From a virus, in IMG/VR virus record IMGVR_UViG_3300027736_000282, positions 1-21,514 of that record: DNA of 21,514 nucleotides; one strand, written 5' to 3'. The position numbers and the translations under genes are program-made. A model generated the notes under the pieces. The model was not told the origin of the DNA, did not search any database, and saw only the letters and a list, made by a program, of their open reading frames with translations. Positions 14,427 to 21,514 of this stretch are shown piece by piece (position 1 is the stretch's first letter; every line of letters begins with the position of its first letter).

Positions 14427-14548
14427 ATTCACTCCTTTTTAAGTTGGTAAGAGGATTGTCAATGATTAAAAAAGGCTTGTGAACTAGGACAAACCCTATA
14501 TTGACAAACTAAATTTAAGTATAGGATTGCTTGTCAAAAGGAGACTAC
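14427..14548. promoter_or_regulatory. divergent early control region
   Basis: A 122-bp non-coding stretch between divergent operons. It contains three copies of the heptamer TTGACAA or its complement: TTGTCAA at 14456-14462, TTGACAA at 14501-14507, TTGTCAA at 14531-14537. They alternate in orientation and two are part of the longer GGATTG(CT)TGTCAA-like context. They can act as -35 elements and also as repressor half-sites. Candidate plus promoter is listed separately; on the minus strand -35-like TTGACA occurs but I see no convincing -10 at correct spacing. Confidence 0.6.
14501..14527 (+). promoter_or_regulatory. possible promoter for right-going operon
   Basis: Perfect -35 TTGACA at 14501-14506 and a weak -10 TAGGAT at 14522-14527, spacer 15. 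The ATG of the next gene is at 14549 with AGGAG 7 bases upstream, so the leader would be very short (about 15 bases). The short spacer suggests it needs an activator or is weak. Confidence 0.45.
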
Positions 14549-14923
14549 ATGGAACTAAAGCAACAACATATTTCAATTCTCAAGAGGTTGGCGCATGGCG
14601 CATCATCTATGAAACGCTTTACCGACAAGGATACAGAAGTTGGAAACCAAGGATTTCACTATCTGCGTTATTTAAACGATCTTCAGAACTTTGGGCTTGC
14701 GTTGGAGATTGATGAAGTTTGGCATATCACGGGGTTTGGGGTGGCTAAGTTGGCAGAACAAACTCCACGGGTTAACAAGGATAGAGTGGCGGCTGGAACT
14801 ACGACAGAAACCTATGATGGGGCAGACCTGAAACATGGTGGCAACAGGGTAGGTGCATCAGATTTCCTTAAATATCCTAGTAAGTTTGGGGACAATCTGG
14901 TATTGCCCAGAGTTTCCCTATAA
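14549..14923 (+). CDS. winged-helix-like protein, possible regulator
   Basis: 124 aa, ATG 14549 with AGGAG. Residues 1-75 ('LKQQHISILKRLAHGASSMKRF', 'FHYLRYLNDLQNFGLALEIDEVWHITGFGVAKLAEQ') have the helix/helix/wing pattern of small winged helix-turn-helix domains ending with the '..WHITxxGxxxL' hairpin. The C-terminal tail ('YDGADLKHGGNRVGASDFLKYPSKFGDNLVLPR') contains a 'Y.G.EL....G....R....PS..G..L.YP' pattern seen in other phage proteins of unknown role. As the first gene of the right-going operon and next to the divergent promoters, it could regulate the switch. No DNA-contact motif can be proved by eye. Confidence 0.65.
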   Translation: MELKQQHISILKRLAHGASSMKRFTDKDTEVGNQGFHYLRYLNDLQNFGLALEIDEVWHITGFGVAKLAEQTPRVNKDRVAAGTTTETYDGADLKHGGNRVGASDFLKYPSKFGDNLVLPRVSL

Positions 14924-19399: not shown

Positions 19400-20029
19400 T
19401 TAAGCCGTTGCCTTCTCAGTTTCTACGGCCTTTGGAACATAGCACCATTGTGGAATTGTTGCACCAGTTCCGTCACGCATTGGCATGATTACCCCTATAA
19501 AATTACTCACGCCGATATTGACTAAGGCACTTTGGTTGCCCCGTTGCAAAATGGATACAGTAGGGATCGCGCCTTTTTTGCTCTCTTTTATATCTTGCGC
19601 CGCTTGGTGAAATGCTAAAACGTATTCAGGGTTATAGCAAGCGGGCGCAATATCATCATCTTTTAAGACTAATGGCAATACCCTATCACAATCGGGAAAT
19701 GTCCCGTCAATGGCTTGGAATGTATGCTCGCCGTCTGGTGTGATTACATGGATTTTGAAACCGTCAACTGTAAAGTGTAGGATTTCATTGGCATTTTTAA
19801 CAGTCCCGATTAGAGACTTTATTGCATCATTGCCAATGGTAACGGCGTTTTGTGGCTTAGTTTCGTCATCTATCAACAATCTGCCCATGATGTGCCCATT
19901 TGTTGATTCTAGATAAGTGCCCCGATTATTTTGCACTACATGGATACCTTGCAAGTAATAACGTATGTCTTTAATTGCACTAAAACGAGACAATGCTTTT
20001 AATTGTTTGCGGAGAATTGTAAATTTCAT
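19400..20029 (-). CDS. short DNA polymerase sliding-clamp-like protein
   Basis: 209 aa from ATG 20029 (AGGTG, 6 bases upstream). 'KFTILRKQLKALSRFSAIKDIRYYLQGIHV' and 'YLESTNGHIMGRLLID' resemble the beta-clamp domain signature (xxxDIRYYLxGxx..xxATDGHRL) found in phage DnaN-like proteins; 'GTFPDCDRVLP' matches the clamp segment '..FPDxxxxxP'. At 209 residues it is clearly shorter than bacterial DnaN (about 366 residues), so it probably has two clamp folds and would need trimerization or another oligomer to encircle DNA, or it is a decoy of the host clamp. The gene is flanked by the 44-bp hairpin repeats. Confidence 0.7.
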   Translation of the reverse strand: MKFTILRKQLKALSRFSAIKDIRYYLQGIHVVQNNRGTYLESTNGHIMGRLLIDDETKPQNAVTIGNDAIKSLIGTVKNANEILHFTVDGFKIHVITPDGEHTFQAIDGTFPDCDRVLPLVLKDDDIAPACYNPEYVLAFHQAAQDIKESKKGAIPTVSILQRGNQSALVNIGVSNFIGVIMPMRDGTGATIPQWCYVPKAVETEKATA

Positions 20030-20082
20030 AATTGACACCTATTAAAGAAAATTAAGCATAGGCAAACCCATGCCCCTAATGA

Positions 20083-20671: not shown

Positions 20672-20863
20672 TTAATAATTATTGTTTACAAAGTCTGATA
20701 AATCACCAATTATCATATCTAAGGTAGAACCCTTGGAGATATGCAACTTTAAGAGTTTGACAAAATCAGAGTTTTCTAGCAATAGGTAAGGGCTTACAGT
20801 TGTAACGTCTGCTATTTGTCCAAGGACAAAAGACATATCGAAGTCAGTAGTTTGATTTTGCAT
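20672..20863 (-). CDS. first gene of second left-going operon, unknown
   Basis: 63 aa from ATG 20863, with the leader TTTTTAATGGGTGTGAATATG (GGGTG). An upstream ATG or TTG would add a hydrophobic stub with no ribosome site. 'DMSFVLGQIADVTTVSPYLLLENSDFVKLLKLHISKGSTLDMIIGDLSDF' is an acidic helical sequence. First genes of such operons are often regulators or host-takeover proteins, but nothing shows it here. Confidence 0.65.
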   Translation of the reverse strand: MQNQTTDFDMSFVLGQIADVTTVSPYLLLENSDFVKLLKLHISKGSTLDMIIGDLSDFVNNNY

Positions 20864-20936
20864 ATTCACACCCATTAAAAAGATTATTAAAAGAGACACT
20901 CTTGCGAGCACTTAATACTATGCACATACCATGCCA

Positions 20937-20945
20937 ATTCTAGCA
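20937..20945 (-). promoter_or_regulatory. extended -10 promoter element
   Basis: On the minus strand TGCTAGAAT is a full extended -10 (TGnTAnAAT) in an AT-rich setting, about 75 bases before the first start at 20863. The matching -35 (TTTATT at 17-bp spacing) is poor, which is acceptable for extended -10 promoters. Confidence 0.5.
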
Positions 20946-20989
20946 TTTATAAAATATCTAATAAAATCAAGCACTTAGAGAAACTTAAC

Positions 20990-21017
20990 ATAATAAGTAT
21001 GCACCTACATTGTGCAA
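20990..21017 (-). promoter_or_regulatory. possible promoter covered by an operator dyad
   Basis: On the minus strand -35 TTGCAC (21017-21012) and -10 TATTAT (20995-20990) with 16-bp spacing. The dyad site at 21001-21015 lies over the -35 end and spacer, so protein binding there would block polymerase. It would read leftward into the operon starting at 20863. Confidence 0.5.
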
Positions 21018-21165
21018 GCATTATCACTATATAAAATCATGCACTAACTTCGTGCGTTACCTACTATATATACACCAACATGGTGCATAGACTAACTCTA
21101 TCGGTTTACTTTGTGTGATAGTTGGAATATATCGAAAGGTTTTATAGGTTGCACTGGTATGGTGC
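21001..21165. promoter_or_regulatory. array of GCAC-N7-GTGC dyad sites (operators?)
   Basis: Full dyads: GCACCTACATTGTGC (21001-21015), GCACTAACTTCGTGC (21041-21055), ACACCAACATGGTGC (21072-21086), GCACTGGTATGGTGC (21151-21165). A right half-like TTACTTTGTGT sits at 21106-21116. Start-to-start steps are about 40, 31, 30 and 49 bp. The 15-bp size fits a homodimeric repressor, but no known operator matches by memory. Confidence 0.75.
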
Positions 21166-21177
21166 ATCACATCTATA

Positions 21178-21300
21178 TGCGAACGATTCTCATTTGCAAT
21201 TACTTAATGCTAGTAGTTCTCATTCGCGTTTACCTTAATGCGAGTGATTCTTATTTGTGTTTGGCTAGTTGCTATTGATTCTCATTTAGATTTGTATGGG
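21178..21300 (+). repeat. four tandem degenerate ~31-bp repeats
   Basis: Units start at 21178, 21208, 21239 and 21270 (steps of 30, 31, 31 bp). Each begins TGC, has a core near (G/A)TTCT(C/T)ATT at about position 9-17, then a T-rich part. Units 1-3 are imperfect palindromes around TTC (e.g. GCGAACGA TTC TCATTTGC, six of eight pairs). No spacers lie between the units. They could be iterons or binding sites of a second protein. Confidence 0.75.
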
Positions 21301-21329
21301 GGGGAGGGGGTAGTCGTGCTGTGTAATAT

Positions 21330-21352
21330 TTGTGGGAGCCTCCTACCCACAA
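21330..21352. other. hairpin TTGTGGG...CCCACAA
   Basis: Perfect 7-bp inverted repeat with a 9-base loop. No T-run follows on either strand, so it is not a usual terminator. It stands right after a G-rich run (21298-21310). Confidence 0.5.
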
Positions 21353-21447
21353 GAAAAGGTAAATTAGCCTTTTTAAGATAAGACTAGATAATTGGTAGCA
21401 AAAATAGGGGAGCAGTAAAGTACAGACGTAGCAAGGCAGTCGTAGAT

Positions 21448-21467
21448 ATTCTCATGGTCTTGAGAAT
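21448..21467. other. hairpin ATTCTCA...TGAGAAT
   Basis: Perfect 7-bp inverted repeat with a 6-base loop, followed by CCCT/AGGG arms at 21468-21480. The core TTCTCA is the same as in the 31-bp repeats, so the same protein could bind here. Confidence 0.45.
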
Positions 21468-21514
21468 CCCTGACTTAGGGTGGGTGTCGTTTATCGTACA
21501 GAGTTAAGTTAGTC

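Follow-up and report, generated by a model that had tools for sequence, protein, structure and literature searches.

A predicted NtrC/sigma-54 control region as one module of an exchangeable cassette in uncultured phages

Introduction

The present analysis deals with a 21,514-base IMG/VR virus record, referred to below as the window, in which a cluster of inverted repeats (dyads) precedes a left-going operon. With a probability of about three in four, these dyads form an NtrC enhancer array through which a glnAp2-type sigma-54 promoter is predicted to drive the left-going early genes, the whole representing one module of an exchangeable cassette. A widespread group of uncultured phages appears to possess such a glnA-type NtrC/sigma-54 switch, swapped with iron, SOS, aromatic-catabolism and replication-initiator sites, and the arrangement of these motifs suggests that the phages may read the nutritional or stress state of their host before switching genes on. 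If true, the host states monitored by a phage, and the evolution of that input, become directly testable. Control of phage genes by host nutrients is already known from cyanophages and their NtcA and PhoB sites; neither NtrC/sigma-54 control of a phage nor a cassette swapping the sites of several host regulators was found in the open-access papers that were searched.

The Dyad Cluster of the Window

Three exact copies of GCAC-N7-GTGC occur in the window (21001-21015, 21041-21055 and 21151-21165), against 0.31 expected, together with a fourth copy at 21072-21086 which deviates by one mismatch, and the clustering put forward in the original prediction is thus borne out. All of the exact copies lie inside a single 165-bp span, and none of 300 Markov-simulated genomes displayed three exact copies within 170 bp. 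The cluster is real, far beyond chance and restricted to one place of the genome. Start-to-start steps of 40, 31 and 79 bp separate the successive dyads; the first two agree with the steps near 30-50 bp initially described and the last one does not.

The frequency of the dyads along the genome and their conservation in relatives had been proposed as checks. They are confined to one genome place, but their conservation is uneven, since they are missing from L004 and L005, the two relatives whose DnaN-like gene is most similar, and kept at a fixed spacing in many others, a distribution that fits an exchangeable module. When viral contigs were searched for pairs of GCAC-N7-GTGC dyads separated by 10-40 bp, most of the matches were estimated to be due to chance, and the result was set aside.

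NtrC-Type Boxes and Sigma-54-Type Promoter

Once extended to 17 bp, the dyads match the enteric NtrC site TGCACC-N5-GGTGCA, the consensus of which is given as TGCACCAnnnTGGTGCA (PMC8743547; also PMC4987338). The elements of the region are listed below, the distances of the box centres being counted from the predicted start of transcription at 20910:

20672..20863, minus strand: first gene of the left-going operon, with an ATG at 20863 (GTG at 20911 in the ORF list)
20921..20936, minus strand: sigma-54-type promoter TGGCATGGTATGTGCA, with GG-N10-GC spacing, facing the left operon
20965..20977, plus strand: IHF-consensus site AATCAAGCACTTA (WATCARNNNNTTR), between the promoter and the NtrC-type boxes
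20990..21017, minus strand: weak sigma-70-like TTGCAC-16-TATTAT, overlapping NtrC-type box 1
21000..21016: NtrC-type box 1, TGCACCTACATTGTGCA, centre at -98
21040..21056: NtrC-type box 2, TGCACTAACTTCGTGCG, centre at -138
21071..21087: NtrC-type box 3, TACACCAACATGGTGCA, centre at -169
21150..21166: NtrC-type box 4, TGCACTGGTATGGTGCA, centre at -248

The promoter sequence TGGCATGGTATGTGCA shows two mismatches to TGGCACGNNNNTTGCW, which equals the score of E. coli glnAp2 in the scan, and the -12 element is GTGC rather than TTGC in most members. From the predicted transcription start at ~20910, a 5' UTR of about 47 nt would precede the first left-going gene, the ATG at 20863 being preferred because an SD-like AGGTG/GGGTG recurs before the ORFs of the left operon. 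No PHROG family was found for this first gene, and an Rfam search of 20850-21514 gave no match.

In E. coli K-12 glnA, used as a positive control, the identical scan retrieved NtrC boxes at -108 and -140. Compared with the opposite strand of the glnA -140 site, box 3 of the window is changed at 2 of its 17 bases, and box 2 departs from the consensus at 3 of 12 positions. Many sigma-54 promoters have their bEBP sites at an upstream distance of ~70-150 bp (PMC3844500); two of the boxes of the window (-98 and -138) fall within this range and the other two lie further upstream. The region resembles E. coli glnA (glnAp2 type) with respect to its 17-bp boxes (about -98/-138, compared with -108/-140), its GG-N10-GC promoter and its short leader, but it differs by the occurrence of four boxes instead of two, by an IHF-consensus site lying between boxes and promoter, and by the position of the putative array, which precedes the early genes of a phage.

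Taken together, the NtrC-type boxes and the sigma-54-type promoter support the earlier view that several regulatory sites form an array serving the left operon. The GCAC half-sites reported toward the first gene are indeed present, three in number (20908, 20922 and 20971); the one at 20922 is part of the -12 element of the sigma-54-type promoter and the one at 20971 falls inside the variable middle of the IHF-consensus site. This latter site occurs at one offset in 12 of 12 subtype-1 relatives, the subtype of the window (0.23 expected by shuffling), with the specified bases kept and the N4 positions varying; the 12 sequences are kin, and count as support rather than as 12 independent events. 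The IHF-consensus site is absent from subtype 2.

As for the TTGCAC-16-TATTAT promoter originally proposed, its letters are present (minus strand, 21017-20990) but score only 8/12 as a sigma-70 site. No sigma-70-type site of the region reached 9/12 in the scan, and a sigma-70 left promoter was rejected on this threshold, sigma-70-like sites occurring at chance level in the -560..-300 interval. The adjoining AACTTAACATAATA is conserved in subtype 1, and it is a matter of speculation that the overlapping weak site would parallel glnAp1. About one third of the relatives devoid of the sigma-54-type promoter exhibit, on the same side, a sigma-70-like CTGGCA/TTGGCA-N16-18-TATA, a conserved form limited to part of the relatives.

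The Candidate Partner of the Dyads

According to the original prediction, a repressor or an autoregulated initiator of the phage itself would control the left operon through the dyads, the candidate being the protein at 14549 (encoded at 14531-14923). Clustered dyads with variable centres that overlap a possible promoter would suit a regulator of this kind, and the candidate protein is small. However, the dyads correspond to the NtrC consensus, stand at glnA-like distances and co-occur with a sigma-54-type promoter, a tie which a phage repressor leaves unexplained, and Fur-, LexA- and PaaR-like sites take the same place in relatives. Relatives that have the dyads and relatives that lack them encode homologues of the 14549 protein, and none was found in G003, a contig with NtrC-type boxes. 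This candidate, the only regulator covered by the comparison, was not found wherever the dyads are, and the proposed pairing is not supported. It is unlikely that the dyads serve a phage repressor as operators, and the explanation as a whole is improbable.

The sigma-54 activator domain PF00158 was not found in 13 records, nor was an integrase in 12; these records may be fragments. With no activator of sigma-54 seen among the 13 records, the partner should be the host NtrC, which is the parsimonious choice. Searched in prokaryotic genomes, the conserved G-rich element that lies beyond the array returned four matches in unrelated contexts, attributed to chance by inspection, and pointed to no host.

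Co-Occurrence of Boxes and Promoter in Relatives

Apart from the contigs fetched by the promoter core, relatives of the window were collected with three queries: the DnaN-like protein (19400-20038), which retrieved six viral contigs, the conserved G-rich element TTGTATGGGGGGGAGGGGGTAGT, which retrieved 25, and TerL, which retrieved more than 591, the set being reduced to 80. Motifs were counted in 75 non-redundant stretches and compared with shuffled sequences; the relatives share kinship and the counts are not fully independent samples. Leftward sigma-54-type promoters number 28 versus 1.0 in shuffled sequences, whereas opposite-strand sites remain at chance level (1 versus 1.3), and NtrC-type boxes number 71 versus 4.2, the sigma-54 and NtrC totals being inflated by some stretches fetched through the promoter core. 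The counts of the other site types are 53 Fur-like sites with at most 4 mismatches (0.25 shuffled), 24 LexA-like CTGT-N8-ACAG (0.8), 19 PaaR-like CCGACCGACCGGTCGG (0.0) and 144 copies of the TetR-like dyad TTAGTGNNCACTAA (3.45).

Among 54 non-redundant relatives selected independently of the promoter, NtrC-type boxes occur in all 6 that possess the sigma-54-type promoter and in 4 of the 48 that do not (Fisher p = 8e-6). In contigs fetched by the promoter core alone, the boxes mostly occupy fixed offsets, namely 84/124/155/234 in subtype 1 and 75/106-115/137-146 in subtype 2. A box lies within 270 bp upstream in 25 of 31 such non-redundant contigs (0.31 expected), compared with 0.027 boxes per 270 bp elsewhere in these contigs; the six box-less ones may be chance matches to the promoter pattern. 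Subtype 2 keeps promoter and boxes on either side of a divergent spacer, and its NtrC-type boxes alternate with the TetR-like dyad. In several sigma-54-type contigs of this subtype, all of the NtrC-type boxes have one mismatch.

Proposed Mode of Action

The motifs themselves, their spacing and co-occurrence, the swapping among relatives and, for the records searched, the lack of a phage-encoded activator are read directly from the sequences; that proteins bind there, that nitrogen matters and that the operon is activated is predicted. Under nitrogen limitation, and in a host equipped with NtrC, sigma-54 and IHF, dimers of NtrC-P would occupy all four boxes and assemble into an oligomer at the sites 98 and 138 bp (and further) ahead of the start; with the DNA bent at the IHF site, this activator would open the host sigma-54 RNA polymerase waiting at 20921-20936. 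From a start near 20910, transcription would proceed leftward, the left operon presumably firing when the host is short of nitrogen.

The Exchangeable Cassette

In the contigs examined, the stretch extending from the first left-going gene to the G-rich element varies strongly between shared flanks. The NtrC array would represent one module of this variable cassette, which occupies a fixed genome position, ends at the G-rich element and, in related phages, would offer sites to other regulators, e.g., Fur, LexA, PaaR, DnaA or the protein recognizing the TetR-like dyad. Beside the NtrC-type boxes, the cassette of the window comprises four Fur-like boxes standing 30-31 bp apart:

21176..21194: Fur-like box 1, TATGCGAACGATTCTCATT
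21206..21224: Fur-like box 2 (degenerate), AATGCTAGTAGTTCTCATT
21237..21255: Fur-like box 3, AATGCGAGTGATTCTTATT
21268..21286: Fur-like box 4 (degenerate), GTTGCTATTGATTCTCATT
21292..21314, plus strand: conserved G-rich element, TTGTATGGGGGGGAGGGGGTAGT, bounding the variable cassette

With 3, 5, 3 and 5 mismatches, respectively, to the 19-bp consensus AATGAGAATGATTCTCATT, this tandem array is close to the Fur consensus, and binding of Fur is predicted from this similarity. Neither these boxes (21176-21286) nor the sigma-54-type promoter figured in the earlier reading of the region. By blastn, 21176-21286 matches the T5-like phage bobsandoy (78% over 70 bp); a plasmid search with the Fur-like stretch gave no match.

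Depending on the relative, the cassette combines Fur-, LexA-, PaaR- and TetR-like sites, e.g., LexA-like in L148, PaaR-like in L132 and TetR-like in L141, with a spacing that is fixed within each type. A strict 31-bp lattice common to all of the site types was rejected, the Fur-like sites being 30-31 bp and the LexA-like ones 18 and 32 bp apart. Fur, LexA and PaaR are known mainly as repressors. The TetR-like dyad builds arrays of up to seven copies in L141 (between 157 and 12 bp to the left of the G-rich element) and L214, and is interspersed with the NtrC-type boxes in L165 and other members of subtype 2. In L170, L179 and L191, a perfect NtrC-consensus box, TGCACCTACTTGGTGCA, is located amid Fur-like boxes. 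Exact DnaA boxes occur in the cassette of 8 of the 75 relatives; five or six of them are found 560 bp left of the G-rich element in L268 and L273, at the place of the Fur- or LexA-like sites of other relatives. The window contains no DnaA box TTATNCACA.

The tandem units of ~31 bp adjoining the G-rich element could evoke a replication origin whose iterons bind a phage initiator. The iterons of one initiator should match each other, but even close relatives have entirely different units here (Fur-, LexA-, PaaR- or TetR-like), and this, together with the lack of a DnaA box in the window, makes an origin very improbable indeed. The accumulation, in a short stretch, of many sites for different host regulators, varying between relatives, might also be explained by a decoy array which titrates the host NtrC, Fur, LexA and PaaR and disturbs the host responses. 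Four to eight sites per injected genome are nevertheless few in comparison with the copy numbers of the regulators, which are typically well above this figure, more sites becoming available after replication; moreover, titration does not need a sigma-54-type promoter at fixed distances, and a decoy appears quite improbable.

Comparison with Known Systems

The closest known counterparts are promoters of cyanophages: these phages carry NtcA sites (PMC3037559), and PhoB binding has been demonstrated for some promoters of cyanophage S-PM2d (PMC10976474). As is predicted for the window, sites for a nutrient-stress regulator of the host precede phage genes. Unlike the NtcA and PhoB sites, which are dispersed genome-wide, the sites considered here would involve NtrC with sigma-54, and those of several regulators stand side by side in one exchangeable cassette. 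The PaaR operator ACCGACCGGTCGGT of the Burkholderia cenocepacia paa genes (PMC2770484) is a palindrome matching the CCGACCGACCGGTCGG dyads of some relatives; these PaaR-like sites are present in relatives and not in the window, and their binding is predicted only.

A likeness with respect to site types concerns two non-coding regions of phage T5:

AY543070 9140-10149: annotated T5 injection stop signal, iss
AY543070 6098-6228: T5 stretch between the divergent pre-early promoters, at ~6.1-6.2 kb

The T5 signal has been described as repeats, palindromes and DnaA boxes with an unclear mechanism, and no Fur or LexA sites were listed (PMC13250531, 2026). In the present scan, DnaA boxes occur in the iss together with several Fur-like boxes and a single LexA-type box. 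Over T5 1-100000, 5 of 7 Fur-like boxes lie in the iss, and the iss and the 6.1-6.2 kb stretch between them account for the two LexA-type boxes and for every exact DnaA box. The iss-like regions of Eps7 and bobsandoy resemble the T5 iss, and the Fur-like stretch of bobsandoy matches 637 phage records. Like the cassette, the iss and pre-early regions are non-coding and harbour tandem Fur-, LexA- and DnaA-type sites. Unlike the window, the iss showed no convincing NtrC-type box or sigma-54-type promoter, and DnaA boxes are missing from the window, though exact ones occur in 8 of 75 relatives; the T5 iss lies in a terminal repeat, and the likeness discussed here is one of site types.

These similarities recall the proposal made for the T5 iss, i.e., a roadblock or landing pad on which host proteins pace the entry of DNA, their identity mattering little. 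The interchangeable site types, the DnaA arrays of L268 and L273, and the composition of the T5, Eps7 and bobsandoy regions would all agree with such a role. However, it presupposes that the cassette lies at the genome end entering first, it finds no DnaA box in the window, and it leaves the sigma-54-type promoter and its spacing unexplained, so that a DNA-entry function can hardly be considered probable. A broader and rather doubtful extension, offered tentatively, is that the cassette could be the exchangeable host-state sensor of this phage group, kept at one position and reading nitrogen (NtrC), iron (Fur), DNA damage (LexA), aromatics (PaaR) or growth (DnaA) to time early genes or entry, the injection-stop and pre-early regions of T5 perhaps being the same device. 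What makes up the T5 injection stop signal would thereby receive a concrete interpretation open to testing.

Sequences Adjoining the Cassette

Beyond the G-rich element, relatives encode TerS and TerL. In the window (21292-21360) as in relatives, the very conserved G-rich element is followed by a hairpin of the GTGGGAGCCTCCTACCCAC type, and the two together possibly constitute a packaging site. Further to the right, about 90 bp (21425-21514) are nearly identical in L004, and an unrelated conserved block takes their place in L005 and L006.
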